Origin: Georgenia muralis
Lineage (GTDB): Bacteria > Actinomycetota > Actinomycetes > Actinomycetales > Actinomycetaceae
DNA length: 64,000 bases
NCBI RefSeq assembly: GCF_003814705.1
Contig: NZ_RKRA01000001.1
Coordinates: 1,674,001 to 1,738,000, forward strand
Reading direction: 5' to 3'
Shown piece after piece: positions 30,610-49,500 of this stretch. Position 1 is the first letter of the stretch. Each line of letters starts with the position of its first letter. The notes below the pieces were generated by a model. That model made no database searches and was not told the origin of the DNA. It was given only the letters and a program-made list of their open reading frames with translations. The translations under genes and the position numbers were made by a program.

Positions 30610-30697
30610 GGAGGGCTGACAGAGCGGCCGAATGTGACGGTCTTGAAAACCGTTGTGCGCTAACCCCGCACCAAGGGTTCGAATCCCTTGCCCTCCG
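30610..30697 (+). tRNA. tRNA-Ser (anticodon TGA)
   Basis: The acceptor arms GGAGGGC and GCCCTCC pair perfectly. The anticodon arm ACGGT-CTTGAAA-ACCGT gives anticodon TGA. A long variable arm (TGTGCGCTAACCCCGCA) is typical of class II serine tRNAs, and GGTTCGAATCC is the T loop. The CCA end is not encoded. A TAGACT -10-like box lies at about 30569. Confidence 0.95.
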
Positions 30698-30789
30698 CCG
30701 TGCGGGCCAGGCCCGACGGTCGGTGGACCGGCACGTCCCGACATGGCCCGGCCCTTGACGGGGCGGTGCTCGCCGGGCAGGTTCGCGGC

Positions 30790-32658: not shown

Positions 32659-33186
32659 TCAGAGACGCGGACCGTCCGGGGTGGGGGGACATCCAGCCAG
32701 CATGTCCTCCTCGCGGGAGAAGAACGGGACGTCGGGGTAGGTCTCGCGCACGCGGATGACGTCGATCGTGGCGAGACCGAGCCCGGCAGGCCCGGGCAGC
32801 AGCAGCCCGAGGATCCGTGCCTTCTCGCAGCGGAAGCCCGCCGTCCCCAGGACGACCCGCCCGTACCCCTCCACGATGCCCGAGAGCCGGCCCGGCTTCG
32901 TGTACGGGTCCTGCCGGTAGTACGCGTAGAACCCGCAGGTGCATCCCGCAAGGCCGTGCGTCGTGCTGATCTCACGCACGGACGACGTCCGTACGACGAT
33001 CCGTCCGTCGGGCCGCTGCTCGACAACGCCCCCGTCGTGGCGGCACTGCGCGCGGTTCTCGCCCGGCTCCCAGACCTGGTTGTGGAAGACACCGGTGAGG
33101 TGGCCCTCGGTCGTCGCCCCGAACGAGCGCCGGCCCCGGACCGAACCGAGCACGAGAGCGGGACCGCCGAACTCCTCAGCCTCCAT
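32659..33186 (-). CDS. Conserved hypothetical protein with a Cys-rich centre
   Basis: A 175-residue protein starting at ATG 33186, two bases after the stop of the small acidic gene, so the two are coupled. It has VLGSVRGRRSFG near the start, CTCGFYAYYR in the middle, and VVEGYGRVVLGTAGFRCEKARI. Four or more Cys residues (ENRAQCRHDG, CTC, FRCEK) could bind a metal. The pattern recurs in actinobacterial hypothetical proteins, but no function is known. Confidence 0.7.
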   Translation of the reverse strand: MEAEEFGGPALVLGSVRGRRSFGATTEGHLTGVFHNQVWEPGENRAQCRHDGGVVEQRPDGRIVVRTSSVREISTTHGLAGCTCGFYAYYRQDPYTKPGRLSGIVEGYGRVVLGTAGFRCEKARILGLLLPGPAGLGLATIDVIRVRETYPDVPFFSREEDMLAGCPPTPDGPRL

Positions 33187-33188
33187 CG

Positions 33189-33311
33189 TCAGGCCGGGAT
33201 CTCCTCGGGAGTGGGAGACGGCTCCGGAACCGGGGTCTCCCTCGGCAGGGGCTCGAGCTCGATCTCCTCCTCCTCCTCGCCGATGTCACCCAGTTGCGGG
33301 TCGATCGTCAT
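33189..33311 (-). CDS. Small acidic protein, 40 residues
   Basis: MTIDPQLGDIGEEEEEIELE opens this 40-residue, strongly acidic, Pro-rich protein. A strong ribosome site (GGGAGGAGAG) stands before ATG 33311, and the Cys-rich hypothetical gene follows two bases after its stop. It is too short for domain prediction. Translation is credible because of the ribosome site, codon use and coupling. Role unknown. Confidence 0.65.
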   Translation of the reverse strand: MTIDPQLGDIGEEEEEIELEPLPRETPVPEPSPTPEEIPA

Positions 33312-33615
33312 GTCGCTCTCCTCCCGGGTCGGATAGACGGGCACGCTCGCCGCACACGGACGGCGATGCGGGCCACGTGGTGCACCGATCATGTGACGTC
33401 CGTCACTGTTTGGCAACCGGTGCCCCGAGCGCACGTCCGTCTGATCGTCACGACCATGGGCCGGCCTCATGCGTGACCTGGACGAACGTACTAAGCAAAA
33501 ACCATGACGACGGCAACCTCTTGGCGAACCGGGACCTCGGTCCCCTGTACGCCTGTGCAGTTTCGGGTTGACTCATGTCATCCGGTTCTCGAGGACGAGG
33601 CGAAGGGCGACGAGG
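33312..33615. promoter_or_regulatory. Leader/promoter region of the arc locus
   Basis: This 304-base gap lies between the divergent small acidic gene and arcA and holds no gene. It carries the 16-base element GGACCTCGGTCCCCTG (33532-33547), whose core GGACC-TC-GGTCC is a palindrome, 69 bases before arcA. The same 16 bases occur at 38329 ahead of the second amidinotransferase copy. An A-rich stretch (AAGCAAAAACC, about 33493) stands out and may belong to the promoter. Confidence 0.55.
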
Positions 33616-34863
33616 ATGACGTTGAACACCACCGTGACGCAGGAGTACCGCGTCGCGTCGGAGGTAGGCAACCTCCGCCAGGTGATCCTGCACCGACCAG
33701 GACGAGAGATGTCCAGGCTCACGCCGTCCAACAAGGACGAGCTGCTCTTCGACGACGTGCTGTGGGTCGCCAGGGCGCAGGCCGAGCACGACCGGTTCGC
33801 CCAGGTCCTCACCGAGAGGGGGATCGAGGTCCTGTACCTCGAGCAGCTCCTCGCGGAGTCCCTGGAGAACGTCGATGCCCGCAGGTACGTCCTCGACCAC
33901 GTCGTCGACGAGCGGGTCTACGGTCTCGGTGCCATCGACTCCATCCGCAACCACGCGGACAACCTCGACAGTGCCACGCTGGCCAGCCACCTGATCGCCG
34001 GCGTCACCAAGCGCGAGCTCCTCGAGGAGATCGTCGAGCCCGACTCCATCGCCCTGCAGATCATGGCCCCGGACGACTTCGTGCTCGCGCCGCTGCCGAA
34101 CCACCTGTTCACCCGGGACACCTCCTGCTGGGTCTACGACGGCGTCGCCGTGAACTCCATGCGCAAGACCGCCCGGATGCGGGAGACGGTCAACTACGAG
34201 GCGATCTACCGCTGGCACCCGCGGTTCGCCACCTCCGCGCACCACGTCTGGTCCCCCGGGACGGCCGGCGGTGTCGCCACCGTCGAGGGCGGCGACGTCC
34301 TCGTGATCGGCAACGGCTCTGTCCTGATCGGGCTGAGCGAGCGCACCTCCCCGCAGGGCGTCGAACGGCTCGCCGCCAAGCTCTTCGCCGAGGGGTCCGC
34401 TGAGCGCGTCATCGCGCTGCGGATGCCCGAGGCACGCGCCTTCATGCACCTGGACACCGTCATGACGATGGTCGACCAGGAGTCGTTCACCAAGTACGCC
34501 GGGCTGGGCATGCTGCCGTCCCTGACCATCCGGCCCGGGGCCACGCCCAAAGAGCTCTCTGTCACCACGCACGCCGAGGAGGACATGCACAAGGTGATCG
34601 CCGGGGCCATCGGCCTGGACGACATCCGCATCCTCACCACCCCGCAGGACGCCCACGCCGCCGAGCGTGAGCAGTGGGACGACGCCTGCAACACCCTCGC
34701 CATCGCACCCGGCGTCGTCGTCGGGTACGAGCGGAACACCACCACCAACGCCTACCTGCGGGCCAACGGCGTCGAGGTCCTCGAGGTCCCCGGCACCGAG
34801 CTCGGGCGCGGACGCGGAGGTCCGCGTTGCATGAGCTGCCCCACCATCCGAGAGGAGATCTGA
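33616..34863 (+). CDS. arcA: Arginine deiminase
   Basis: A 415-residue cytoplasmic enzyme that hydrolyses L-arginine to citrulline and ammonia, first step of the ADI pathway. Family residues are all present: FTRD with Asp168, EGGD with Glu224, FMHLD with His278 and Asp280, and the nucleophile Cys405 in RCMSCP at the C-terminus. I chose ATG 33616 after GACGAGG; an in-frame ATG 48 bases upstream would add an unusual basic tail. It leads arcB and arcC with 3- and 2-base gaps, so the three form one operon. There is no arcD antiporter beside them. Confidence 0.97.
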
Positions 34864-34866
34864 GCA

Positions 34867-35925
34867 ATGTCCCAGGACCAGCTGACCTACGAGGCAGTCG
34901 CCGACCCGGTAGGCGTCGGATCGCCGCCCCACGCGCTGCACGGCCGCAGCTTCCTCAAGGAGCTCGACTTCACCCCCGACGAGTGGCGCTCGCTGCTCGA
35001 CCTCTCCGCCGAGCTCAAGGCCGCGAAGAAGTCCGGCACCGAGGTCCCCCGTCTCGTCGGCAAGAACATCGCGCTCATCTTCGAGAAGACGTCGACCCGC
35101 ACCCGGTGCTCCTTCGAGGTCGCCGCGTTCGACCAGGGCGCTCACGTGACCTACCTGGACCCAGCCGGCTCGCAGATGGGGCACAAGGAGTCCGTGGCTG
35201 ACACCGCCCGGGTGCTCGGCCGCTTCTACGACGGCATCGAGTACCGCGGCAAGAGCCAGGAGGCCGTCGAGGTCCTCGCCGAGAAGTCGGGAGTGCCGGT
35301 GTGGAACGGCCTCACCGACGAGTGGCACCCCACCCAGATGCTCGCCGACCAGCTCACCATGCGCGAGCACTGCGGCAAGGCCGACGGCGACATCGCCTTC
35401 GCCTATCTCGGTGACGCCCGCAACAACGTGGGCAACTCGCTCCTGATCGCCGGCGCCATGCTGGGCATGGACGTGCGCATGGTCGCGCCCACGTCCTTGC
35501 AGAACACCCCGGAGATCGTCGCCAAGGCGCAGGAGATCGCCGCCGCCACCGGTGCGCGCATCACGGTCACCGACGACGTGGCAGCGGGCGTCAAGGGTGC
35601 CGACTTCATCTACACCGACGTCTGGGTCTCCATGGGCGAGCCGAAGGAGGTCTGGGACGAGCGCATCGGCCTGCTCAAGGACTACCAGGTCAACGCCGAG
35701 CTCATGGCCGCCACCGGCAACCCGGACGTGAAGTTCCTCCACTGCCTGCCGGCCTTCCACGACCGCGGCACCAAGGTCGGGGAGGACATCTTCCAGAAGA
35801 CCGGCATGACGGCGCTCGAGGTCACCGACGACGTGTTCGAGTCCTCGGCCTCCGTCGTCTTCGACCAGGCCGAGAACCGCATGCACACGATCAAGGCCGT
35901 CATGGTCGCCACGTTGGGGAGCTGA
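34867..35925 (+). CDS. arcB: Ornithine carbamoyltransferase (catabolic type by context)
   Basis: A 352-residue enzyme which in the ADI pathway splits citrulline with phosphate into ornithine and carbamoyl phosphate. The carbamoyl-phosphate site STRTR is at residues 76-80, followed by [21 protein letters not shown] and the C-terminal [10 protein letters not shown] (catalytic Cys) are present. Its length exceeds the usual anabolic ArgF and fits ArcB. It follows arcA by three bases and precedes arcC by two. Confidence 0.96.
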
Positions 35926-35927
35926 GC

Positions 35928-36911
35928 ATGCGCATCGTCGTAGCACTCGGCGGGAACGCCCTCCTCGAGCGCGGTCAGATCGCCGACGCCCGCGCACAGC
36001 AGGCCAACGTCGAACGCGCCGTCAAGGCCCTGGCGCCGCTCGCCGAGAACCACGAGCTCGTCCTCACCCACGGCAACGGCCCCCAGGTGGGCGTCCTCGC
36101 CCTCCAGTCGGCGAACGACACCACCCTGACCGGGCCCTACCCGTTCGACACCCTCGGTGCCATGACACAGGGGATGATCGGCTACTGGATGTTGCAGTCG
36201 CTGCAGAACAACCTCCCCGGACGGCACGTCGCGTCGATCGTGAACCAGACCCTCGTCCTCGCCGGTGACCCTGCCTTCGACAACCCCACCAAGTTCGTCG
36301 GTCAGGTGTACGACGAGGTGGGGGCCGAGCGGGTCGCGGCGGAGCGCGGCTGGGTGATGAAGCCGGACGGCGAGTACTTCCGTCGCGTCGTCGGCTCACC
36401 GAAGCCGCAGCGGATCGTCGAGACCCGGATCATTCGGACCCTCATCGAGTCCGGTGCTGTCGTGGTCTGCGCCGGTGGCGGCGGGATCCCCGTCATCCGC
36501 GACGAGCGGGGCCTGCGCAAGGGCGTGGAGGCGGTCATCGACAAGGACCTCACGGCCGCCGTGCTCGCCGAGGCGATCGAGGCCGACTTCCTCATGATTC
36601 TCACCGACGTCCCCGCGGTGCTCGACAACTACGGGACGCCGGAGCAGATCGAGATTCCCCGCGCGACCCCGTCGTTCATGCGCAAGAAGGGATTCGCTGC
36701 CGGCTCGATGGGGCCCAAGGTGGAGGCAGCCTGCCGGTTCGTCGAGCTCACGGGCGAGTCAGCCGCCATCGGCCGGCTCGAGGACGCCGAGAAGATCATC
36801 TCCGGCGAGGCCGGAACCATCATCACGCCCGGCGGGAACTACGGCGGGCCGGACGACATCCGTCCCCCGCTACCCGAGCCCGTCGAGACCGCCTTCATCC
36901 GCCGCGCCTGA
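35928..36911 (+). CDS. arcC: Carbamate kinase
   Basis: A 327-residue amino-acid-kinase-fold enzyme that makes ATP from carbamoyl phosphate and ADP. It shows VVALGGNALLERGQ at the N-terminus, LTHGNGPQVG, VCAGGGGIPV, the Lys in VIDKDLTAAVLA, and FAAGSMGPKVEAA. It ends the ADI set. The first amidinotransferase gene follows after 116 bases with no clear terminator, so read-through from arcABC is likely. Confidence 0.97.
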   Translation: MRIVVALGGNALLERGQIADARAQQANVERAVKALAPLAENHELVLTHGNGPQVGVLALQSANDTTLTGPYPFDTLGAMTQGMIGYWMLQSLQNNLPGRHVASIVNQTLVLAGDPAFDNPTKFVGQVYDEVGAERVAAERGWVMKPDGEYFRRVVGSPKPQRIVETRIIRTLIESGAVVVCAGGGGIPVIRDERGLRKGVEAVIDKDLTAAVLAEAIEADFLMILTDVPAVLDNYGTPEQIEIPRATPSFMRKKGFAAGSMGPKVEAACRFVELTGESAAIGRLEDAEKIISGEAGTIITPGGNYGGPDDIRPPLPEPVETAFIRRA

Positions 36912-36985
36912 GCGGCCCGTCCAGCACCACCCCGCCGCGGACCCGCGGCGCAGCAGACCAGCCCGTCCTGTGGTGGGCGGGAGAG

Positions 36986-37003
36986 GTGCACGGCGACGTG
37001 CAC
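36986..37003. promoter_or_regulatory. GTGCAC-N6-GTGCAC inverted repeat, copy 1 leader
   Basis: Two GTGCAC boxes, each its own inverse, are separated by GGCGAC about 25 bases before the start codon. It could be an mRNA hairpin or a protein site. Copy 2 carries it too, followed by a diverged second version. Confidence 0.45.
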
Positions 37004-37027
37004 GGATATCGAGGAGTGAGTTTCGAG

Positions 37028-38155
37028 ATGCCAAAGATCGTCAACTCGTGGAACGACTTCGACCCGCTCAAGCACGCGATCGTGGGCCGGGCCGACTTCA
37101 GCATGATTCCCCCGGAGGAGCCGGCCACCTCGGAGAAGGTGCCGGTGGACTCGGAGATGCGGGGGATGTGGGGCCCGCGCCCGACCGAGACGGTGGAGAA
37201 GGCCAACGAGCAGCTGGACAACTACGTCGCGGTGCTCGAGAAGCACGGGGTCAAGGTCGACCGGCCCACGCCGCTGCAGTGGAACCAGCACATCCAGACG
37301 CCGGACTTCCGCAACGACTCGATGATGACGGCGATGCCGCCGCGGGACATCCTGCTGACCATCGGCAACGAGATCATGGCCTCGGCGAACTCGTTCCGGT
37401 GCCGGTACTTCGAGTACCTGGCCTACTGGCCGCTGATGAACGAGTACTTCGAGAACGACCCGGAGTTCAAGTGGTCGCAGGCCCCGCGCCCGCGGCTGAC
37501 GGACAAGTCGTACAAGCACAACTACTACGACGAGAAGATCTCCCTCGAGGACCGGCTCATCCGGACCGCGAACAAGGACTTCGTCACCACCGAGGTCGAG
37601 CCGATGTGGGACGCCGCGGACGTCATGCGGGTGGGTAAGGACCTGTTCATCCAGCACGGCCTGACCACCAACCGCAAGGCGATGGAGTGGTTCAAGCGGT
37701 ACTACCCCGACCTGCGGGTGCACTCGGTGAACTTCCCCGGCGACCCGTACCCGATCCACATCGACGCCACGTTCGTGCCGCTGCGCCCGGGCCTGATCAT
37801 CAACAACCCCCACCGTCCCCTTCCCGTGGAGCAGCGGGCCATCTTCGAGGCCAACGACTGGCAGATCGTCGAGGCCGCCAAGCCCGCCCACGACGGCCCG
37901 CCGCCGCTGTGCTACTCCTCGGTGTGGCTGTCGATGAACTGCCTGGTCCTGGACCACAAGACCGTCGTGGTCGAGGAGTCCGAGGTCTACCAGGCTGAGC
38001 AGATGGACAAGCTCGGCATGAACGTCATCCCCGTACCCTTCCGCGACGCCTACCCCTTCGGTGGCGGCCTGCACTGCGCCACCGCGGACGTCTACCGCGA
38101 GGGCGGCATGGAGGACTACTTCCCCAACCAGGTCGAGGACCCCACCCTCGTCTGA
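37028..38155 (+). CDS. Glycine amidinotransferase-type enzyme, copy 1
   Basis: A 375-residue enzyme of the guanidino-group-modifying superfamily. It resembles vertebrate L-arginine:glycine amidinotransferase along its length: HAIVGRADF, TPDFRNDSMMTAMPRDIL-like PPRDILLTIGNEI, FVTTEVEPMWDAAD with Asp195, PIHIDATFVPL with His244, and GGGLHCATADVYR with nucleophile Cys350. Asp to His spacing (49 residues) equals that of human GATM. It should move the amidino group of arginine to an amine; glycine (giving guanidinoacetate) is the default acceptor, but other amines cannot be excluded. ATG 37028 follows GAGGAGTGAG. Probably read with arcABC. Confidence 0.88.
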   Translation: MPKIVNSWNDFDPLKHAIVGRADFSMIPPEEPATSEKVPVDSEMRGMWGPRPTETVEKANEQLDNYVAVLEKHGVKVDRPTPLQWNQHIQTPDFRNDSMMTAMPPRDILLTIGNEIMASANSFRCRYFEYLAYWPLMNEYFENDPEFKWSQAPRPRLTDKSYKHNYYDEKISLEDRLIRTANKDFVTTEVEPMWDAADVMRVGKDLFIQHGLTTNRKAMEWFKRYYPDLRVHSVNFPGDPYPIHIDATFVPLRPGLIINNPHRPLPVEQRAIFEANDWQIVEAAKPAHDGPPPLCYSSVWLSMNCLVLDHKTVVVEESEVYQAEQMDKLGMNVIPVPFRDAYPFGGGLHCATADVYREGGMEDYFPNQVEDPTLV

Positions 38156-38163
38156 CCTGATCC

Positions 38164-38200
38164 GCGTGGGCGGCCGTGCCGAGCGACCGGCCGCCCACGC
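38164..38200 (+). terminator. Terminator after amidinotransferase copy 1
   Basis: GCGTGGGCGGCC pairs perfectly with GGCCGCCCACGC around a 13-base loop, nine bases past the stop. It should end the arcABC-amidinotransferase transcript, leaving copy 2 on its own promoter. Confidence 0.75.
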
Positions 38201-38328
38201 CGGCAGAGGTGGTCCCGCCGGACCACGCCGAGCCAACCCGACGCTGGGCGCCTGGTGCGAGGGCCTGTGCGCAACAGGACGCGTGCGCAGCCCCGAAACG
38301 GCAGCACTCGGCCAAGATCTTGTGACCA

Positions 38329-38358
38329 GGACCTCGGTCCCCTGGACGAGCGTCCAGG
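38329..38358. promoter_or_regulatory. Shared arc-type element and palindrome before amidinotransferase copy 2
   Basis: GGACCTCGGTCCCCTG (38329-38344) is identical to 33532-33547 before arcA, and flanking bases are also alike (TCTTG-N-ACC upstream, ACG downstream). It runs into CCTGGAC-GAGC-GTCCAGG (38341-38358), a perfect palindrome. Likely a common regulator site or promoter; inference. Confidence 0.6.
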
Positions 38359-38390
38359 AGTTGCTTCACTTGGTTGTCGGGCAGGCGCCC

Positions 38391-39624
38391 GCAGCAGACC
38401 AGCCCGTCCTGTGGTGGGCGGGAGAGGTGCACGGCGACGTGCACCGACCAAGAGGTGCGCGACGACGCGCACGGATATCGAGGAGTGAGTTTCGAGATGC
38501 CAAAGATCGTCAACTCGTGGAACGACTTCGACCCGCTCAAGCACGCGATCGTGGGCCGGGCCGACTTCAGCATGATTCCCCCGGAGGAGCCGGCCACCTC
38601 GGAGAAGGTGCCGGTGGACTCGGAGATGCGGGGGATGTGGGGCCCGCGCCCGACCGAGACGGTGGAGAAGGCCAACGAGCAGCTGGACAACTACGTCGCG
38701 GTGCTCGAGAAGCACGGGGTCAAGGTCGACCGGCCCACGCCGCTGCAGTGGAACCAGCACATCCAGACGCCGGACTTCCGCAACGACTCGATGATGACGG
38801 CGATGCCGCCGCGGGACATCCTGCTGACCATCGGCAACGAGATCATGGCCTCGGCGAACTCGTTCCGGTGCCGGTACTTCGAGTACCTGGCCTACTGGCC
38901 GCTGATGAACGAGTACTTCGAGAACGACCCGGAGTTCAAGTGGTCGCAGGCCCCGCGCCCGCGGCTGACGGACAAGTCGTACAAGCACAACTACTACGAC
39001 GAGAAGATCTCCCTCGAGGACCGGCTCATCCGGACCGCGAACAAGGACTTCGTCACCACCGAGGTCGAGCCGATGTGGGACGCCGCGGACGTCATGCGGG
39101 TGGGTAAGGACCTGTTCATCCAGCACGGCCTGACCACCAACCGCAAGGCGATGGAGTGGTTCAAGCGGTACTACCCCGACCTGCGGGTGCACTCGGTGAA
39201 CTTCCCCGGCGACCCGTACCCGATCCACATCGACGCCACGTTCGTGCCGCTGCGCCCGGGCCTGATCATCAACAACCCCCACCGTCCCCTTCCCGTGGAG
39301 CAGCGGGCCATCTTCGAGGCCAACGACTGGCAGATCGTCGAGGCCGCCAAGCCCGCTCACGACGGCCCGCCGCCGCTGTGCTACTCCTCGGTGTGGCTGT
39401 CGATGAACTGCCTGGTCCTGGACCACAAGACCGTCGTGGTCGAGGAGTCCGAGGTCTACCAGGCTGAGCAGATGGACAAGCTCGGCATGAACGTCATCCC
39501 CGTGCCCTTCCGCGACGCCTACCCCTTCGGTGGCGGCCTGCACTGCGCCACCGCGGACGTCTACCGCGAGGGCGGCATGGAGGACTACTTCCCCAACCAG
39601 GTCGAGGACCCCACCCTCGTCTGA
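38391..39624 (+). repeat. Direct repeat, copy 2 (amidinotransferase unit)
   Basis: This repeats 36950-38155, offset 1469 bases in the coding part. The leader has an added 28-base segment containing GTGCGC-GACGAC-GCGCAC (38455-38472), a diverged duplicate of the GTGCAC-GGCGAC-GTGCAC hairpin (38427-38444). Confidence 0.95.
38497..39624 (+). CDS. Glycine amidinotransferase-type enzyme, copy 2
   Basis: The 375-residue product is identical to copy 1, with the same Asp195, His244 and Cys350. Only two silent third-base differences separate the genes, so the duplication is very recent or kept alike by gene conversion. Unlike copy 1 it is preceded by a terminator and by its own arc-like upstream element, so it can be made independently or in addition when arc is induced. 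A strong terminator follows at 39637-39664. Ornithine, its by-product, would meet the neighbouring OTC. Confidence 0.88.
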   Translation: MPKIVNSWNDFDPLKHAIVGRADFSMIPPEEPATSEKVPVDSEMRGMWGPRPTETVEKANEQLDNYVAVLEKHGVKVDRPTPLQWNQHIQTPDFRNDSMMTAMPPRDILLTIGNEIMASANSFRCRYFEYLAYWPLMNEYFENDPEFKWSQAPRPRLTDKSYKHNYYDEKISLEDRLIRTANKDFVTTEVEPMWDAADVMRVGKDLFIQHGLTTNRKAMEWFKRYYPDLRVHSVNFPGDPYPIHIDATFVPLRPGLIINNPHRPLPVEQRAIFEANDWQIVEAAKPAHDGPPPLCYSSVWLSMNCLVLDHKTVVVEESEVYQAEQMDKLGMNVIPVPFRDAYPFGGGLHCATADVYREGGMEDYFPNQVEDPTLV

Positions 39625-39636
39625 GCCAGCACGAAC

Positions 39637-39664
39637 GAGGGGGTGCACCAGGGTGCACCCCCTC
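39637..39664 (+). terminator. Terminator after amidinotransferase copy 2
   Basis: GAGGGGGTGCAC pairs perfectly with GTGCACCCCCTC around a 4-base loop, 13 bases past the stop. The next gene therefore likely starts a new transcript or depends on read-through. Confidence 0.8.
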
Positions 39665-39744
39665 CCGGGGGCCAGCCGCCCTCGACCCCAGCAGAACCGA
39701 CCTCCCGTCTTACCGGGCAGGACCCGCGAAGGAGCGGAATCGCC

Positions 39745-40809
39745 ATGCAGTCGTCAAGCCGCACCAAGCTCACCGGCTTCGCCATCATGTTCCTGTCCTC
39801 CAGCCTCATGGGCGGCATCGGTGCCTTCGCCCGGTACATCGAGGCTCCGGGACTCTTCATCTCGTTCGCCCGCAACCTGGCGGGTCTGGTCCTCATGACC
39901 CTCATCTTCACGGTCGGGCGCAAGTACGTGAGGTTCCGCGGGTTCCGCCTCACCCCCGCGCTCGTCGCCTCCGGGGTCTTCCTCGGCCTGCTCTCCGGCC
40001 TGTACGTGATGTCCACCCAGATGACGACCCTCGCCAACGCGGCGTTCCTCATCTACACCGGGCCGATCTACTCCACCATCCTCGCGAGCATCTTCCTCAA
40101 GGAGCCGTTCACGAGGGCGACGGCGATCTCGCTCTCCTCGGTGTTCGTCGGGTGCCTCCTCATCATCGGGATCATCAACTATTCCGCCGGCGCCGGGTTC
40201 ACCGTGTCGCTCGACCTCGATCCCAAGTACTTCGCGGGCAACATGGTCGCCCTCGCGTCGGGCGTGGCGTACGGCCTCTTCCTCTTCGTGAGCCGATACC
40301 GCACCGACGTCGAGTCCGACGTGCGGGCCTACACCAACTTCACCTTCGCCGTCATCACCCTCGCGGTCATCAACGTCGTGAAGGTCCCGGACCTGGGCGG
40401 GATGACCGCCCGCGGCTGGCTGGTCCTCGCCGTCGCCGCCTTCGTCACCGGCGCCGGTGCGTTCTACTTCCTCACCGTCGCCTCGAAGATCCTGCTCGCC
40501 GGCGAGCTGGCGACAATCTCCTACCAGGAGACGATCATGGCGACGATCCTCGGCGTCGCCCTGTTCAGCGAACCGCTGTCGTTGATGCAGATCCTCGGTG
40601 GCGTGCTCATCATCGTCGGTGGCCTCTCGCAGATCCTCTTCTCCACCAAGAAGGCACCGGAGCTCACCGAGGCCTTCACCCAGGGCGGGGTGGCCGGCGG
40701 CAGGCACGACGACGGCGCAGCCACCACGGTCGGGAGCGATCCCGACGCCCCGGGCGTCGTCCGGCCCGAACTCGTCGTCCCGAACAACGTAGGAGCCGAG
40801 ACGAAATGA
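39745..40809 (+). CDS. EamA/DMT-family transporter
   Basis: A 354-residue membrane protein with ten predicted segments in two EamA repeats and a hydrophilic tail of about 45 residues. ISYQETIMATILGVALFSEPLS in the second repeat and YTGPIYSTILASIFLKEPFT in the first are the typical EamA ends. ATG 39745 follows AAGGAGCGG. EamA proteins usually export metabolites, so it may export a guanidino product or import an amino acid. It overlaps the creatininase gene by four bases and opens a six-gene coupled run. Confidence 0.85.
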   Translation: MQSSSRTKLTGFAIMFLSSSLMGGIGAFARYIEAPGLFISFARNLAGLVLMTLIFTVGRKYVRFRGFRLTPALVASGVFLGLLSGLYVMSTQMTTLANAAFLIYTGPIYSTILASIFLKEPFTRATAISLSSVFVGCLLIIGIINYSAGAGFTVSLDLDPKYFAGNMVALASGVAYGLFLFVSRYRTDVESDVRAYTNFTFAVITLAVINVVKVPDLGGMTARGWLVLAVAAFVTGAGAFYFLTVASKILLAGELATISYQETIMATILGVALFSEPLSLMQILGGVLIIVGGLSQILFSTKKAPELTEAFTQGGVAGGRHDDGAATTVGSDPDAPGVVRPELVVPNNVGAETK

Positions 40810-41582
40810 CGACCGAGACCGTCTACATGGAGGACCTCGACGCCTTCACCTACCGCGAGCGCATCGCGGCCGGTGCCCCGGTCCTCATCCCCGTGGGGTC
40901 GATCGAGCAGCACGGCCCCCACATGCCGCTGAACACCGACGTGCTGCTCTCGCGGGCGATGGCCGGCGCCGTCGCCGGAAAGACCGGGTCGCTCGTCGCG
41001 CCGGCCATGGTCTTCGGGTACAAGTCCCAGCAGCGTTCGGGCGGGGGCAACCACCTCACCGGGACGACCAGTCTCGACGCCGCCACGGTGGTGTCCGTCG
41101 CCAAGACGCTGGTGCTCGAGCTCGCCCGCCACGGGGTCCGCAAGGTCGCCTTCGTCAACGGGCACTACGAGAACTACCAGTTCCTCTACGAGGGGGCCGA
41201 CCTGGCGCTGCGCGAGCTCCGGCTCGACGGCGTCACCGACCTGACGGTCGTGCTCCTGTCGTACTGGGACTTCGTCGGTGACGACGTCATCGCGGAGCTC
41301 TACCCCGACGGCTTCCCCGGCTGGGACCTCGAGCACGGCGGGGTTCTGGAGACCTCTCTCATGCTCCTGCTCCACCCCGACCGCGTCGACATGACCCGGG
41401 TGGCCGACATCGCGCCGGCGCAGCTGCCCAACTACGACGTCCTCCCGGCCCGGCCGGAGATCACACCCGAGTCCGGGTGCCTGTCGTCCGGTGCCGCCGG
41501 GACCGCGGAGAAGGGCAGGCTGCTCCTCGACGGCGCGGCAGCGGGCATGGTCGCAGCCCTCCGTCACGAGTTCGGGGTCTGA
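40806..41582 (+). CDS. Creatininase (creatinine amidohydrolase)
   Basis: A 258-residue metal-dependent cyclic amidohydrolase. It matches Pseudomonas creatininase almost block for block: SIEQHGPHMPLNTD with metal ligands Glu34, His36 and Asp45; FGYKSQQRSGGGNHLTGTTSLD; NGHYEN with His120 and Glu122; SYWDFV with Trp154; and GWDLEHGGVLETSLML with the second substrate Trp (173) and catalytic His (177). These substrate tryptophans separate true creatininases from mycofactocin or FAPy members. It should open creatinine to creatine, or a related ring such as glycocyamidine to guanidinoacetate. No creatinase gene is visible in the window. Confidence 0.9.
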   Translation: MTTETVYMEDLDAFTYRERIAAGAPVLIPVGSIEQHGPHMPLNTDVLLSRAMAGAVAGKTGSLVAPAMVFGYKSQQRSGGGNHLTGTTSLDAATVVSVAKTLVLELARHGVRKVAFVNGHYENYQFLYEGADLALRELRLDGVTDLTVVLLSYWDFVGDDVIAELYPDGFPGWDLEHGGVLETSLMLLLHPDRVDMTRVADIAPAQLPNYDVLPARPEITPESGCLSSGAAGTAEKGRLLLDGAAAGMVAALRHEFGV

Positions 41583-41587
41583 TCGCC

Positions 41588-43165
41588 GTGCTCCGCAGAT
41601 TCTCGGCCGCCGTCTCCCCGGACGGGCTGGTAGCGCGCCCCGTCGGTGAGAGTGCAGACCCCGGGGACGCGCAGGTCGACAACGTCCGAAGAGACGTGGA
41701 GGAGACGCTCCACCCCATCCCGGAGGCGCAGCGGACCACACGGGTCGGGGGCCAGTTCTGGATCTGGGCCGGAGCGAACATCGCTCCGATCAACTGGGTC
41801 CTCGGCGCGCTCGGCATCAACATGGGACTAGGCCTGTGGGACACCTTCGCCGTCCTGGCCGTCGGCAACCTGATGGGCATGGTCGTCTTCGGCTTCTTCG
41901 TGCTGCTGGGCCAGCGCACGGGAGTGACCGGCATGGTCCTCGGACGCGCGGTCTTCGGGCGCCGCGGCAACTATGTGCCGGCGGTCATCCAGGCGGTCGT
42001 GGTGATCGGCTGGTGCGCCGTCAACACCTGGATCGTCCTTGACCTGGTGCTCGCTCTCTTCGGCGAGATCGGCCTGGTTGACCCCAGCCTGGACAACTAC
42101 GGCTGGAAGTTCGGGGTGGCCGCCGCCGTCATGCTCGTCCAGGTGACGATCGCGCTGTTCGGCTACCGGGCGATCGCCGCCTTCGAACGGTGGACCGTCC
42201 CCCCGACGATCGCGATCCTCATCGCGATGTCGATCGCGGCCTGGTTCTTCATGGACATCGACTGGTCCTACTCCGGCCCTCCCGGGGGAGCGCTGGCCGG
42301 CTGGGACCGGATCGGCGCGATGTCGACCGTGATGACGGCCATCGGCGTCGGCTGGGGCCTGACATGGCTCACCTACGCCTCCGACTACTCCCGCTTCGTC
42401 AGCAGGGCCGTCCCCCGGCGGAAGCTCTACCTCGCCTCCGCCGGGGGCCAGATCCTCCCGGTGCTGTGGCTCGGGCTCCTCGGGGCGACCCTGGCCACCA
42501 CCAACGGCTCGATCGACCCCGGCCAGCTCATCGTCACCAACTTCGGCACGCTGGCCATCCCGGTCCTGCTGCTCGTGCTGCACGGGCCCATCGCCACGAA
42601 CATCCTCAATATCTACACCTTCACCGTGACGGTCCAGAGCCTCGATCTCCGCATCGGCAGAAGGGCCCTGAACATCGGGGTGGGCGCGGCGGCCATGGGC
42701 GCGGTCACCGTGTTCGTGTTCTCCACCAACATCGCGCACTCGCTCGACGCATGGCTCTCCGCCTCCGTGGGCTGGACCTCCACCTGGGGCTCGATCGTGG
42801 CGGTGCGGTACTACCTCCTCGACCGCCGCTCCACAGACTTCACACACTGCTTCGACCCGGTGGGCACCAGCAGGCTCAGGGACGTCGACTGGCGGGCGCT
42901 GACCGCGTTCGGCGTCGGGCTCACCAGCGCGTGGCTGTTCATGCAGGGCATGGTGCCCGCACTGCAGGGCCCGGTCTCCAACGCGCTGCGCGGGCTGGAC
43001 CTGTCCTGGTTGGCCGCCGCCCTGAGCTCGGGCGCCGTCTACTACCTGCTCGTGCGCCGCGACCCGTCGTTGCGTGCTCCTGCCGCCCCCGTCGCTGTCC
43101 GGCCGACGGTGCGAACGCCGGCCGCCGGCGTGCCCGACGCACCTCACCTCGCGGAGACGTCATGA
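41588..43165 (+). CDS. NCS1-family permease (purine-cytosine permease-like)
   Basis: A 525-residue transporter with about twelve membrane segments. [20 protein letters not shown] in the first segment and [15 protein letters not shown] in the seventh are NCS1 landmarks for substrate and sodium sites. NCS1 members carry cytosine, purines, allantoin, hydantoins and similar ring compounds. Beside creatininase, a cyclic guanidino compound such as creatinine is a reasonable substrate, by inference. GTG 41588 lies six bases after the creatininase stop; I see no better start. It overlaps the next gene by four bases. Confidence 0.85.
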
Positions 43166-44103
43166 GCGCCACCCACCTCGCCCCGGCCGAGCGGTGGACG
43201 AGCCCGACCTGTCCCGATGGCCTGACGCCCGAGCAGAAGGCCGAGGTGCTCATCCAGGCGCTGCCCTGGCTCGAGCGCTTCGCCGGCGGCCGGGTCGTCA
43301 TCAAGTACGGCGGGCACGCCATGGTGGACGAGCGGCTCCACCGGGCGTTCGCCGAGGACGTGCTGTTCCTCCACCGGGTGGGCATGCGGCCCGTCGTGGT
43401 CCACGGCGGCGGCCCGCAGATCTCCCGGATGCTCGACCGGCTCGGGATGACCACGGAGTTCCGCGGCGGCTTGCGGGTGACCACCCCCGAGGTCATGGAC
43501 GTCGTGCGCATGGTCCTCACCGGGCAGGTCCAGCGCCAGCTGGTCGGGCTGCTGAACGCCCAGGTCGCCCACGCCGTCGGGATCTCCGGCGAGGACGGTG
43601 GGCTCTTCCGGGCCCGGCGCACCGGGGCGGTGGTCGACGGCGAGACGTTTGACGTGGGTCTGGTGGGTGACGTCGTCGTGGTGAACCCCCAAGCCGTGGA
43701 GGACCTCCTCGCCGGCGACCGGATCCCGGTGATCTCCACGATCGCCCCTGACGTCGACGACCCCGGCCGCGTGCTCAACGTCAATGCTGACACCGCCGCG
43801 GCCGCGCTCGCCGTCGCCTTGGGTGCGCGCAAGCTCGTCATCCTCACCGACGTGGAGGGCCTCTACCCTCGGTGGCCCGACCGGTCCTCGCTGCTGCGGC
43901 GGGTCTCGGTCTCCCAGCTGGAGGCACTGCTGCCCGCTCTGCAGTCCGGGATGGCCCCGAAGATGGCCGCCTGCTTGCGCGCGGTGCGTGAGGGGGTGCC
44001 CCAGGCCCACGTCATCGACGGCCGGCACGCCCACTCGATGCTCGTGGAGATCTTCACCGAGGAGGACATGGGGACGATGGTGCTGCCGGACGGTGTGGCA
44101 TGA
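43162..44103 (+). CDS. argB: Acetylglutamate kinase
   Basis: A 313-residue amino-acid-kinase-fold enzyme. [77 protein letters not shown] and the C-terminal [13 protein letters not shown] are ArgB signatures. It would phosphorylate N-acetylglutamate in arginine synthesis. Here it stands without argC, argJ or argD, inside a cluster that otherwise consumes arginine, and is coupled on both sides by ATGA overlaps. It may be a second ArgB, or one recruited to a different acyl-amino acid. Confidence 0.92.
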
Positions 44104-44429
44104 GTGCCGTGGCCCAGCAGCTCTGGCCGGTGCCGGAGCTGTCCGAGGGGCGCTGTGGTGCTGCCGGATCGCCCACCCTGCGGGTGCTCGAGGGCCTCGT
44201 CCGCGACGTGACCCAGGCGGAGGACCTGGTGCTCGTCACGACCGTCCCCGGCGGGGGTGCGCTAGCCGCCGCGGCCATCGACCGTGCCCAGATCGCCCCC
44301 ATCGTCGGTACGGTCGCGGGTGAGGCCGCCGTGGTGGCGAGGACACGATCGCCGTTGTCCGCGCAGGTGGTGGCACGCTATCTGCGGAGCGTGGCCCGCG
44401 GCGCGGCGACGGAGGGACGGTTGGGATGA
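44100..44429 (+). CDS. ArgR C-terminal-domain-only protein
   Basis: A 109-residue protein. Residues about 27-102 align with the arginine-binding/oligomerisation domain of Arg[40 protein letters not shown] against the family pattern VVIxTxPGAAQxIAxxxD...ILGTIAGDDT. The N-terminal winged helix of full-length repressors (about 70 residues) is absent, and residues 1-26 do not resemble one. The Asp in AID is kept, but the ligand Gln of PGAAQ and the GDD pair are replaced (PGGGA, GEA). ATG 44100 is in an ATGA overlap with argB, and its stop overlaps tetR. It may sense a ligand or mix with full ArgR. Confidence 0.72.
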
Positions 44430-45034
44430 ACGGGATGAACGGACAGCCACGCACGACGGTCGACCGTCGGTCACCTGCCCGGCAGGGCGTGTCGGACAAG
44501 GGCGGCCGACGGCGCGCCGAGATCGCCGAGGCGGCCGCCGCGATCCTGCGCGAGGAGGGGCCTGCCGGCGTCTCGCACCGCACGGTCGCCCGCCGGGTGG
44601 GCTGCTCGCTGTCGCTGACGACCTACTACTACGAGAGCCTCGACGAGATGCTGGCCGAGGCCGGCCGCATCAACATCGGCCTGTGGGCGTCTCGCGCCGA
44701 GGCGGTCGCCGAGGCGGCCGAGAGCGAACCGCCACCGACCGGCCCGGACGCTGTGACCGCGCTCGTCCTGCGTGCCTGCCTGCCCGCCGGGGACGAGCTG
44801 CTCGGCCACTACTTGCAGCTGATCGCCGCCGCGCGGGCGATCCCGGTCACGCGCGCGTACCGCACCGGGCGAGACCGTCTCAACGGTGCGCTCGTTCGCG
44901 TGCTGCGCCAGGTCCGCAGCGAGTGCCCACCCGAGCTCGTCATCGCCGTCGTCGACGGCGCGGCCGTCTCGGCGCTCAGCGAGGGCCGGGACGTCCGCGA
45001 CACTGCTGCGCAGCTGCTGCGGCACGTGCTCTGA
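44426..45034 (+). CDS. TetR-family transcriptional regulator
   Basis: A 202-residue regulator. The N-terminal helix-turn-helix (about residues 28-74) reads EIAEAAAAILREEGPAGVSHRTVARRVGCS followed by TYYYESLDEML, a standard TetR fold. The C-terminal ligand domain is helical. It is the last gene of the run starting at 39745, coupled by ATGA to the ArgR-like gene, so it probably controls this operon. An ATG nine bases inside is an alternative start. Confidence 0.87.
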   Translation: MNGMNGQPRTTVDRRSPARQGVSDKGGRRRAEIAEAAAAILREEGPAGVSHRTVARRVGCSLSLTTYYYESLDEMLAEAGRINIGLWASRAEAVAEAAESEPPPTGPDAVTALVLRACLPAGDELLGHYLQLIAAARAIPVTRAYRTGRDRLNGALVRVLRQVRSECPPELVIAVVDGAAVSALSEGRDVRDTAAQLLRHVL

Positions 45035-45048
45035 CGGTCGACCTCGAC

Positions 45049-45125
45049 CTCGACCTCGTCCACGTCGGGCTGACGCGCCCGGTCGTGCGCATCGAAGGAC
45101 GCTTGAACCCCCGCCAGGACGGCCC
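45049..45125 (+). pseudogene. Remnant of a paralogue of the gene at 31495
   Basis: LDLDLVHVGLTRPVVRIEG encoded here matches TDFDLVHVGPTPPVVRIDG of the 31495 gene; about 50 bases align with only a handful of differences, and a following RQDGPPA resembles SQDGPLA there. The rest of the gene is missing. It lies between tetR and tRNA-Ser(GCT), while the intact gene lies close to tRNA-Ser(TGA). Confidence 0.65.
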
Positions 45126-45156
45126 GCCGGCCCCCCGCCGGGTGAGCCGTGCGTTT

Positions 45157-45184
45157 TTGACCGGCGCACCGGTCCGGGTAACCT
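45157..45184 (+). promoter_or_regulatory. Promoter of tRNA-Ser(GCT)
   Basis: TTGACC (45157-45162) and TAACCT (45179-45184) are separated by 16 bases and end 13 bases before the tRNA, fit for a sigma-70-type promoter. Confidence 0.6.
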
Positions 45185-45197
45185 GTGGGAGGGACTT

Positions 45198-45286
45198 GGA
45201 GACGTCGCATAGTCAGGTCTAGTGCGCATCCCTGCTAAGGATGTGACGGGGTAACCCGTCCGTGGGTTCAAATCCCACCGTCTCCG
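45198..45286 (+). tRNA. tRNA-Ser (anticodon GCT)
   Basis: GGAGACG pairs with CGTCTCC. The anticodon arm CATCC-CTGCTAA-GGATG gives GCT. A long variable arm (GACGGGGTAACCCGTC) and GGTTCAAATCC complete a class II serine tRNA. CCA is not encoded. Confidence 0.95.
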
Positions 45287-45298
45287 CCAGCGTCCCGA

Positions 45299-45330
45299 AG
45301 GGGGCCGCGAACCTCGGTTCGCGGCCCCTT
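45299..45330 (+). terminator. Terminator after tRNA-Ser(GCT)
   Basis: GGGGCCGCGAA pairs with TTCGCGGCCCC around a 6-base loop, about 13 bases past the tRNA. The following 45331-45556 shows nothing I can name apart from repeated GGTCCGCGG-like words. Confidence 0.75.
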
Positions 45331-45556
45331 CGGTCTCCGCGGCGTGGGGAACGGACCGCTCCGGGTACCCGACAAGACGCTCCACATCGCGCGGAACGTG
45401 GGCACTGGCGGTCGCCGCAGGTCCGCGGTCCGGCGTCTGGTGGGTCCGCGATGGCCCGATGAAGGCGTCGCCGCGCTGGTTGCGGACCTTCGGACCTGGT
45501 TCTCCGGGGGCCGCCCACCTAGCGTGGAGGTCGGCTCCTGGAGCTCGGAGGTCACC

Positions 45557-46501: not shown

Positions 46502-49500
46502 TCACCGGTTCCGTGCGTGCTCCGGCGGTCCCTGCTCGCCCGCGAACGGCGGTCGGCCGGGCTCGCCGACGTGCGGCGGACGGTTGCCCGGACGGTCCTC
46601 GTCCCCGCCGGCCGTGCCGACCGGCGGAAGGAGCGTGATCACCGTCGGCTCCGGGTTGGCGCCGAGGCGCGCCCCCGTCTCCGCCGGTGCCTGGTCGCTG
46701 AGCTCGAGCAGGCCGTGCATCTCGATGCTGCCGTCCGCGGCGATCTCCGGGACGAGATCGGTGTCGAGACTGCCGAACCAGTCGTCCGAGACCAGGTCGC
46801 CCTCGCTGTTGACGCTGGCGTCACGGACGAAGTCGCCCGCCACGGTGAGGTAGTTCGACGGCTCGGTGGTGAGCGTGTCCTCCTGCTCGCGCAGGTCGAT
46901 CCGGTCCGCAGCCCCCGCCACGTAGGACAGCATGCCGCTGACCTCGTAGTCGGTCGTGGACGCGCTCGTCGCGAGCTGGAGGTTACCCGAGGCGTTGTCG
47001 TACGACGTGACGTCGTGCACCCGCACGTCCGGTCCGGAGTTGGACGTGACGCCGCGGCCGAGGTTGCCGAACGAGACGGAGTTGCGCAGCAGGTGCTTGC
47101 CCGGCATCGACTCCCCGCCGAGCTTGAAGCCGTTGCCCTCACCGGTGCGCTCGGGGTCGTCCTCGAGCTGACCGTTGCGGTAGGCGACGGAGTCCTCGAC
47201 CACGACGTCGCCGATCGGCCCGGTGGTGGACTTGGCGTACAGGTCCCAACCGTCGTCGATGTTGTGGTGGGCGATGTTGTACCGGAAGACGTTGCCGTCC
47301 CCGACCGTCAGCTTCGCGGCGAAGCCGTCGGCGTCGTTGCCCTGGGGGTCGACGTTGTTGTGCGACACGCTGGAGACCACCAGGTTGTCCGACGGCCACA
47401 TCTCGTAGGGCTCGGAGGCCTCACCGGAGATCTGCACCCCGGTGTCCTGGTTGTGGTGGGACTCGATGCGCTCCACCACGTTGTGGTCGCCCTGGATGAG
47501 CAGGGGCTTCTGGTAGCCCTGCGACCCGGTGATCTCCAGGTCGTACAGGTGCCAGTAGTCGCCTCGCAGCTTGATCCCGCCCGACGTCGAGTCCGAGAGG
47601 TCGAGGGTGGCTCGCCCGTCGGGGTGGGACATCAGGGTGATCGGGGCCTCCGCGGTGCCGTCGTTCCCGCGGCCGACCACGACGGCCTCGGTGGGCCGGT
47701 ACGTGCCCGGCGCGAGGACGATCTGCTGGCCGGGCTGGACGAACGCCACGGCCGTGTGCAGGTCCAGCGGGTTCTCGGGCGTCCCGTCGCCGTTCGCGGT
47801 TCCGTCGGGGGCGACGTGGATCGACTCGCCCGGCTCGCCGAAGCGGTCGACCTCGATGGTGATCGGGATCGAGACCGGGTCGTAGGAGGACAGGTCCTCG
47901 TACTCGCCGAGCTGGGTCTGCTCCTCCTTGGGAGCGGGCGTGAGCTCGGCGGTCAGCTCGTTCGTCCCGTCCTCGAGCGGGACGGTGATCTCCCGGCTCT
48001 CGCCCGGTGCGAGCGTGACCTCACCGACGACGTCGCCGTCGCCGTCGCGGACGACCGCCTCACCGTGGACGTTGGACACGAGCGGGACGTCCAGACTGTC
48101 GTGCGGGGTGGTCCGCGTGACGTCGGCGCTCAGGGTGGGGTCGACGTAGGTGATGGGCCGCGGGAGCGGCGCCTCGTCGTCGTCCGGGTGGATCGTCGTG
48201 AACTCGATGTCGCTGGCGGTCACGACGATCTTCCGGGCGGCGAAGATGCCCACGTAGTACTTGTCGGGGTCCTGCTGCAGGAGCAGGTCCGGCTCGTAGT
48301 CGATGATCTCGTGGACCTCGCCGTCCTGGTCGGTCCAGATGGCGTGGAAACCCGTGTTGGACTTGCGCAGGGTGTACTCGTAGACGTCACCCTCGGTGAA
48401 CCGCGGCGGGTTCGTGTTCGAGCCCTCGGTGTAGCCCGCCCGGAAGTCCCAGTCGAACGGCTGCGACCGGCTCATGTCGCGGTCCGCGGAGGCGACGGTC
48501 GGGGCGTCGGTGTAGCCGTCGACGAACTTCCCGCCGGGGGTGCCGTACGCCACCTCGAGGGAGCCGTCCACGTCACGGGTGTACTTCGCCGACATGACGC
48601 CGGCGTTGTTGAAGTATCGCGCGGCGCGGTTGTTCGGCTCGAACGTGTCGACGGCGACGATGCCGAACCCGGACTGGTTGTCCTTCAGTGACGCGTCGTT
48701 CACCGTGAACGTCGCGGAGAGGGTGAAGTTCTCCGTGGCCGGGTCGATCTCGGTGTAGTAGTACATGAATCCGTCCTCGGAGTCGGCGATCTTGCCGTTG
48801 TTGTCGAGGAGGGAGAAGGTCAGAGAGCCGTCCGCGTTCTCGATCAGCTCGCCGTTGCTCGAGATTCCGGCGTGGGCGGACAGCCAGCGCTCGACCTCCC
48901 CGGAGACGGTCACCGCGTACGGTTCGGACGTGGCGGTGTCCACCCCGCGCAAAGCCGTGACCTGGAGCTCGTACGAGGTGCCGGGGGTCAGGCCGGTGAT
49001 GTCGGCGCTCGTCCCGGCGGTCGAGGGTCCGGCCGTCCAGTCGGTCGCGCCGGTCTCGCGGTAGGCGAGGTCGTAGGTCTCGGCCTCGGGGACCGCGCCC
49101 CACTCGACGGTGACGGTGGCCTGGTCGCCCTCGACCGCGGAGGTCAGGGCGGAGGTGATCTCCGGCGTCGCGAGCGGCAGCGTGAACGAGGGCGCGGCGA
49201 CCCGCTCGGACAGCAGGGCCGTCTCCTGGTCGTTGCGCGTCAGCGCCACCTGGACCTCGTAGTCGCCGGAGGCGTCCGGGGTGAGGGTGATGCTGCCCGC
49301 GTCTCCAGGGGTTCCGGAGACGCCGGACGCGACCTCCGTCTCGCCGTCGTAGAGGGTGGCGGTGGCGAGGTCGGCGCCCTCGAACCCGATGACGCCGTCG
49401 TAGCTCACGACGATGTCCCCGCCGTCGACGGTCACGTCGGTGATGGTGGGGACCGCGACGGCGTCCCAGGCGGGGCGCTCGGGCGCCGGGCCCTCGGTGA

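Follow-up and report, generated by a model that had tools for sequence, protein, structure and literature searches.

Gene content of the Georgenia muralis locus

We analysed a stretch of 64,000 nucleotides from Georgenia muralis (hereafter the window; contig NZ_RKRA01000001.1 of assembly GCF_003814705.1, positions 1,674,001 to 1,738,000 of the forward strand), whose genome is a single contig of 4.14 Mb. Positions 33616-45034 of the window hold a run of genes, all on the plus strand, which starts with arcA, an ornithine carbamoyltransferase (OTC) gene and arcC and continues with two amidinotransferase (AT) genes and the genes for an EamA transporter, a creatininase, an NCS1 permease, an ArgB, an ArgR C-terminal domain and a TetR-family regulator. 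An initial annotation, made from the sequence by itself, had described this cassette as a possible guanidino-compound circuit that makes, imports or recycles a guanidinoacetate- or creatine-like compound. Here, we propose that it is probably a catabolic, energy-yielding creatinine/creatine operon in which the AT replaces creatinase.

Proteins were assigned with Pfam and NCBIfam models by comparing bit scores with the model cut-offs, and the ATs by their match to the human enzyme; all the genes of the initial annotation were recovered in this way. The arginine deiminase ArcA (33616-34863) scored 527 bits with NF002381 (cut-off 414) and 398 bits with PF02274, and was slightly below the stricter TIGR01078 (478.7 against 489.1). 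The OTC, of arcB type (34867-35925), scored 418 with TIGR00658 (cut-off 281) and 527 bits with NF003286, and the carbamate kinase ArcC (35928-36911) scored 372 with TIGR00746 (cut-off 358) and 439 bits with NF009008; the three enzymes of the arginine deiminase (ADI) pathway are thus all present. Downstream of the ATs lie the EamA transporter, a putative product exporter (39745-40809; PF00892, 77 bits), the creatininase (40806-41582), the NCS1 permease, a putative creatinine importer (41588-43165; PF02133, 132 bits), a second N-acetylglutamate kinase, ArgB2 (43162-44103; TIGR00761, 237 against 151 bits), the stand-alone ArgR domain (ArgR-C, 44100-44429) and the TetR regulator (44426-45034), which gave weak BetI/RutR-like matches under cut-off. 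The junctions are as first described, with 4-base overlaps at EamA/creatininase, NCS1/ArgB, ArgB/ArgR-C and ArgR-C/TetR, and a gap of 5 bases between creatininase and NCS1.

The two AT genes (AT1, 37028-38155; AT2, 38497-39624) start with ATG. Across 1134 compared bases they show 2 differences, both silent, and the duplication already noticed is a tandem repeat encoding identical proteins (36982-38155 = 38451-39624). The repeat extends into the leader, with 1174 bp at 99.57% and 55 bp at 100% identity, and most of the hairpin-bearing AT1 leader (36949-37021) recurs ahead of AT2 (38390-38490). Two leader hairpins look mini-ykkC-like, and a guanidine riboswitch ahead of AT was considered and rejected: no Rfam riboswitch was found at E up to 5 in 33000-45500, and the hairpin loops differ in other Georgenia when compared by eye. 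At the 3' side of AT1 lies a GC hairpin of 13 pairs (38164-38200), attenuator-like and without a T run, and the segment containing it and a second hairpin (38156-38230) has a fold z of -3.96. The 13-pair hairpin may reduce how much transcription continues into AT2 and the creatininase half.

The AT matches human L-arginine:glycine amidinotransferase (AGAT/GATM) at E 4e-80 and scores 21.1 with PF02274, under the cut-off of 22.8. The residues aligned with human D170, D254, H303, D305, R322, S354, S355 and C407 are invariant in 44/44 distinct cassette ATs, and D170, D254, H303 and C407 (human numbering) are catalytic residues of the human enzyme. The flap around position 300 is not of the human type: it reads D-P-Y-P-I in the window, and human N300/M302 are Y300/I302 in all 44. 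In human AGAT, flap residues 300 and 302 are reported to matter for substrate binding, and the AT relative AmtA is reported to be reversible (PMC4887976). A natural-product AT was rejected as an identity, given that the 11 non-cassette ATs met share at most 44% identity with the window AT, while the 44 cassette ATs share at least 80% and form a separate clade.

The creatininase passes the TIGR04448 equivalog model by about 100 bits (338 against 235); those of three other loci (L042, L043 and L084) also score above its cut-off. Aligned with the creatininase of P. putida (1J2T), it is identical at 12 of 12 compared positions, which we take to belong to the active site, among them E34, H36, D45, H120, E122, W154, W174 and H178. 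From these alignments we predict that the window protein is a creatininase acting on creatinine.

Amidinotransferase and creatinase in creatininase loci

A creatininase scan of genome contigs yielded 107 relatives, and the best 80 of the 107 loci were analysed by homology annotation, many of them being cut by contig ends. AT and creatinase were each counted above 150 bits, with an M24 protein carrying a Creatinase_N domain as the creatinase query. AT was present in 22 loci, creatinase in 42, both in none and neither in 16 (Fisher p 8e-10, relatedness uncorrected); the last class includes L063, whose AT remnants reach 53 and 60 bits, and L081, where a creatinase end scores 82 bits. Nine of these 16 genomes carry AT elsewhere (6 at full length, 3 only in pieces). 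The neighbours of the two kinds of loci also differ: arcC is found in 14/22 AT loci versus 0/42 creatinase loci, which hold no arc gene at all, EamA in 20/22 versus 0/42, TetR in 12/22 versus 0/42, and LysR in 0/22 versus 30/42. The arcC and EamA counts bear out the initial view that the two halves of the cassette belong together. Of the AT loci, 11 leave room upstream; arcA, OTC and arcC all occur in 6 of these, OTC and arcC in 2, and none of the three genes in the remaining 3. We read AT as standing where creatinase stands elsewhere, and as replacing it.

In an even sample of the order (198 genomes), AT above 770 bits occurs in 7 genomes, 6 of which have arcABC beside it (the other being L127), and creatininase above 280 bits occurs in 7, of which 3 have AT adjoining and the other 4 lack AT and have a creatinase no more than about 5 kb away. 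Strict exclusivity of AT and creatinase per genome was considered and dropped, being broken by G220 and G171. The best creatinase match in the G. muralis genome reaches 31.8 bits (true ones exceed 500), so the classical creatinine pathway is without its creatinase there, in agreement with the initial remark that none is visible. The alpha subunit of heterotetrameric sarcosine oxidase, SoxA, is over its cut-off in 18/18 chosen creatinase genomes versus 1/28 chosen AT genomes, so AT genomes seem not to process sarcosine via this oxidase. The single positive AT genome is G220, with a creatinase on the same contig; G171 has sub-threshold soxA pieces, and the best soxA match in G. muralis is 191 bits against a cut-off of 1164 (the monomeric enzyme was not searched for).

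The nearest creatininases among the genome contigs searched are those of two other Georgenia loci (L032, 84%; L033, 81% identity). In the creatininase tree, the window and two other Georgenia rows group with Arthrobacter-like rows, most of them creatinase-linked; the group (support 94, not starred) comprises 14 rows, and creatinase-linked ones make up 10 of these. The creatinase label requires 6 changes on this tree, at least 4 of them forced by starred branches.

Actinomycetaceae repeatedly show the arrangement arcABC-AT-EamA-creatininase-importer-TetR, and portions of it are also seen in Eggerthellaceae and in two Neisseriaceae (Pseudomonadota; L043 and L047). The latter carry AT, EamA and creatininase, with an AT from the clade that shares at least 80% identity with the window AT, and likely reflect transfer between phyla. 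AT is found in two contexts, AT-EamA-creatininase-importer and a creatininase-free AT-EamA2-MFS-TetR; the second occurs in L124-L126, several Eggerthellaceae loci and L196, while L127 and L212 have only AT beside MFS. Both modules are present in L054, and L057 and L047 have two ATs with partial second modules. The Georgenia genome G218 (L196) carries the AT most similar to that of the window within the genus (99%), in the cassette arcABC-AT-EamA2-MFS-ArgB-ArgR-C-TetR, which can be aligned to the window up to AT and then again from ArgB. The tandem AT of the window may thus be the joint between the two modules. Genomes with two ATs whose scores are equal or nearly so are frequent (G575, G566, G557, G391, G205), and several draft genomes (G485, G475, G274, G206, G204) contain no more than short fragments of AT, in some cases at the end of a contig, which suggests gene conversion or module swapping via AT.

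NCS1 also stands beside creatininase in 5/42 creatinase loci; among AT loci it was seen only in Georgenia, and other AT cassettes have BCCT or ProP-like MFS in the importer slot. In the two Neisseriaceae AT loci, the MFS clusters with MFS linked to creatinase (96, starred), and the BCCT of G171, which also carries creatinase, falls among creatinase-linked BCCTs. The NCS1 tree comprises 12 rows, all from creatinine loci, and so cannot show nearest kin. By description only, these importers can be set alongside the MFS gene creT of Corynebacterium glutamicum, which lies beside the creatininase gene and is reported to be needed for creatine as nitrogen source (PMC8864220). The arginine/ornithine antiporter TIGR00905, the one antiporter family tested, is over cut-off in 0/9 Georgenia genomes, so arginine-ornithine exchange of this type does not appear to supply the pathway in Georgenia.

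The cassette is flanked by tRNA-Ser(tga) (30610-30699) and tRNA-Ser(gct) (45198-45289), possibly marking an integration site. In G218 the same two tRNA genes are both on one side of the cassette stretch, in G221 (L199) a tRNA-Arg adjoins TetR, and no tRNA is found in the L197 and L198 stretches. Beyond the cassette, a minus-strand open reading frame (ORF; 46502-50020, 1172 residues) gave a partial match to PelX, a pectate lyase, under cut-off (214 against 1490 bits). A second arcA-OTC pair of the same genome lies on the other strand (L200:9430-11916; G000:C1 about 2727430-2729920), next to argR and genes for arginine biosynthesis; the 14 kb examined contain no arcC match.

A proposed route carried by ornithine

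We propose the following scheme. NCS1, or BCCT or ProP-like MFS elsewhere, would import creatinine or creatine, and creatininase would convert creatinine to creatine. AT would then run in reverse, turning creatine and ornithine into sarcosine and arginine, and ArcA, OTC and ArcC would turn arginine into two NH3, CO2 and one ATP, regenerating ornithine, which would act as a catalyst. The net reaction would be creatinine + 2 H2O + ADP + Pi -> sarcosine + 2 NH3 + CO2 + ATP; a creatinase in the place of AT would release the same nitrogen as urea, with no ATP. Sarcosine would probably be exported, perhaps by EamA, because AT genomes mostly have no soxA over cut-off. We favour the catabolic reading because AT in reverse would yield arginine, on which the ADI enzymes encoded in this run act, and we are fairly confident of this direction for some guanidino substrate. 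The initial idea of a guanidino circuit holds as far as linkage and conservation are concerned, but the making or recycling of a guanidinoacetate-like compound fits poorly with the importers, the arginine-destroying pathway, the result for the TIGR00905 antiporter and the AT in the place of creatinase.

The scheme combines elements of several known systems. The creatininase-creatinase-sarcosine oxidase pathway, represented here by Arthrobacter, Paracoccus and Rhizobium loci, has the same creatininase family and overlapping importers (NCS1, BCCT, MFS), whereas the window cassette has AT, arcABC and EamA instead and would direct the amidino nitrogen to ATP rather than urea. ADI operons of the arcABC(D) type likewise use ArcA, OTC and ArcC for ATP; in contrast, the window cassette has no antiporter gene, arginine would be made inside from creatine, and ornithine would be recycled, not exported. 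The agmatine deiminase pathway of E. lenta is also described as bringing a guanidino compound to ATP via carbamate kinase (PMC10234575), but in the proposed route no deiminase would act on the substrate itself, the group being moved first to ornithine. Human AGAT shares its sequence family and catalytic Cys, His and Asp with the AT, which differs in the flap and would work in reverse with creatine.

If ornithine is the carrier, its pool has to be primed even when arginine is abundant, and a spare ArgB and an ArgR fragment lacking the helix-turn-helix (HTH) would see to that. The "ArgR-like" protein of the initial annotation does contain the ArgR C-terminal arginine-binding/oligomerisation domain (109 residues; PF02863, 45.5 against 25) and lacks the HTH: PF01316, the DNA-binding domain, is absent from it and from the 4 scanned stand-alone ORFs, and present in the full-length ArgR of the genome. 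AT is present in 5/9 Georgenia genomes, and a second argB and a stand-alone ArgR-C are found in exactly those 5; another argB (in G. muralis at G000:C1:2723213-2724094) and another ArgR match occur in 9/9, the latter with its N-terminal part visible in each (PF01316 scanned in one). Since the G218 cassette has the pair without creatininase, the pair tracks AT, not creatininase. Among AT loci, both the pair and NCS1 were seen only in Georgenia. A further locus comes from an Eggerthellaceae-like genome of another class (G413, L207:6015-15600; group f42 in common with the E. lenta genome), in which AT-EamA2-MFS-TetR is directly followed, on the same strand, by genes of argC type (semialdehyde dehydrogenase), argJ, argB, argD type (class-III aminotransferase) and argR (full length), the ornithine-making genes. 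No argB was seen in the remaining AT loci shown outside Georgenia, where L207 is the one locus with this linkage. We read the ArgB2/ArgR-C pair and the arg genes of L207 as ornithine supply, and ArgR-C could join ArgR oligomers without binding DNA, poison them and, with ArgB2, keep ornithine supplied.

There is an appreciable, minority chance that ArgR-C is instead a decaying, functionless ArgR paralogue, which would be compatible with the creatine pathway. It evolves fast (46-68% identity to that of the window, versus 83-89% for the neighbouring ArgB2) and its GDD motif varies (EA, DD, DA, ND), as decay would have it, but it lies between argB2 and tetR in 5/5 cassette-bearing Georgenia and, in the 4 of these 5 that were scanned, continues to exceed the PF02863 cut-off. 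An arginine-blind mutant is not claimed: the window has GEA in place of GDD, and elsewhere in Georgenia the last two letters are DD, DA or ND.

Alternatives, independent data and meaning

Two published data sets, neither having the proposed pathway as its subject, bear on the scheme. The genome taken as the Eggerthella lenta type strain has two AT cassettes, AT-EamA-creatininase-BCCT-MFS and AT-EamA2-MFS-TetR (L213 and L214). E. lenta is reported to lower colonic creatine in gnotobiotic mice across diets, and the authors found a creatininase and no gene for further steps (PMC11149096); a published model attributes 58% of E. lenta ATP to the arginine deiminase pathway (PMC10234575). We regard the AT as a candidate for the creatine-degrading enzyme missing in E. 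lenta. In Actinobaculum massiliense, linked here by published annotation and not by sequence, ArcA, ArcB, ArcC and an "arginine:glycine amidinotransferase" with consecutive tags (01647-01650) are each reported to exceed their in vitro levels more than 8-fold in urinary catheter biofilm, and a link of the amidinotransferase to a polyketide was suggested there (PMC6314084).

The main rival substrate is guanidinoacetate, which would pass through the same ornithine cycle (guanidinoacetate + ornithine -> glycine + arginine -> ATP), reached via glycocyamidine where creatininase is present. AT occurs without creatininase, and soxA was not over cut-off in 27 of the 28 AT genomes, as this substrate would allow; the creatininase, however, passes the equivalog model and lies near creatinase-linked ones in the tree, some importers are common to AT and creatinase loci, the flap is unlike that of human AGAT, and E. 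lenta lowers creatine in the mouse study cited above. We consider guanidinoacetate unlikely to be the real substrate. Biosynthesis, with AT making a guanidino compound from arginine (a creatine-like solute or secondary metabolite) for export by EamA, is less probable still. In its favour, textbooks describe AGAT relatives as working in this forward direction, the supply of arginine would also gain from ArgB2, and a polyketide role has been proposed, as said, for an AT of similar context (PMC6314084), but the same run holds an arginine-destroying arcABC and the cassette an importer slot, and a creatininase stands there in place of any recognised biosynthetic partner (guanidinoacetate N-methyltransferase and polyketide genes were not searched for). 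That an ADI operon and a creatinine operon of unrelated roles are adjacent by chance is hardly credible, for although arcABC is not beside AT in some loci, the same gene order recurs across families, arcABC adjoins AT in 6/7 AT genomes of the even order sample, and the 42 creatinase loci lack arc genes.

Several observations weigh against the creatine pathway itself. No AGAT-type enzyme is known to use creatine as its amidino donor. In Actinomyces and Eggerthellaceae, the MFS and most of the BCCT from AT loci fall into separate groups; AT has no adjoining arcABC in 3/11 loci with room, in L127 and in the E. lenta loci; AT is also present in 4 genomes without any creatininase match; and creatinase is also present in 2/22 AT genomes, G220 and G171, the latter one of the three AT-creatininase genomes of the order sample. 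The TIGR00905 antiporter is over cut-off in 2/15 genomes tested, both among the 6 AT genomes from outside Georgenia (G151 and E. lenta), in neither case inside the AT loci shown, and a missing sarcosine oxidase is compatible with glycine as product too. The AT and creatinase labels are strongly clustered on the creatininase tree (for creatinase, 6 changes against a shuffled mean of 29.5; 0/500 as low), and for AT and creatinase labels alone, with at least 3 switches and too few informative independent pairs (about 2; median p 0.5), exclusivity is not significant once corrected for relatedness. Human AGAT, CyrA and StrB1 are known to accept guanidinoacetate as amidino donor (PMC4887976), and sarcosine is reported to have fallen as well in the E. 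lenta mice (PMC11149096).

The cassette-bearing bacteria live in soil, mouth, urinary tract and gut. It is about an even question whether these bacteria, E. lenta included, share an undescribed fermentation of creatinine and creatine to ATP, ammonia, CO2 and sarcosine, through a reversed AGAT-type AT working on a catalytic ornithine pool, with the HTH-less ArgR and spare ArgB of Georgenia as a device that fills the pool. In the open-access literature, subscription literature not being covered, we found no title or abstract opening that proposes this pathway. Creatinine and creatine are major vertebrate nitrogen wastes, and there is interest in their removal by bacteria in the context of kidney disease. 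The established route through creatinase gives urea and no ATP, and a route carried by ornithine would explain the use of creatine by anaerobes without creatinase. It would also reinterpret the catheter-biofilm-induced amidinotransferase that had been linked to a polyketide (PMC6314084), and would name a candidate for the enzyme not found in the 2024 E. lenta study (PMC11149096).

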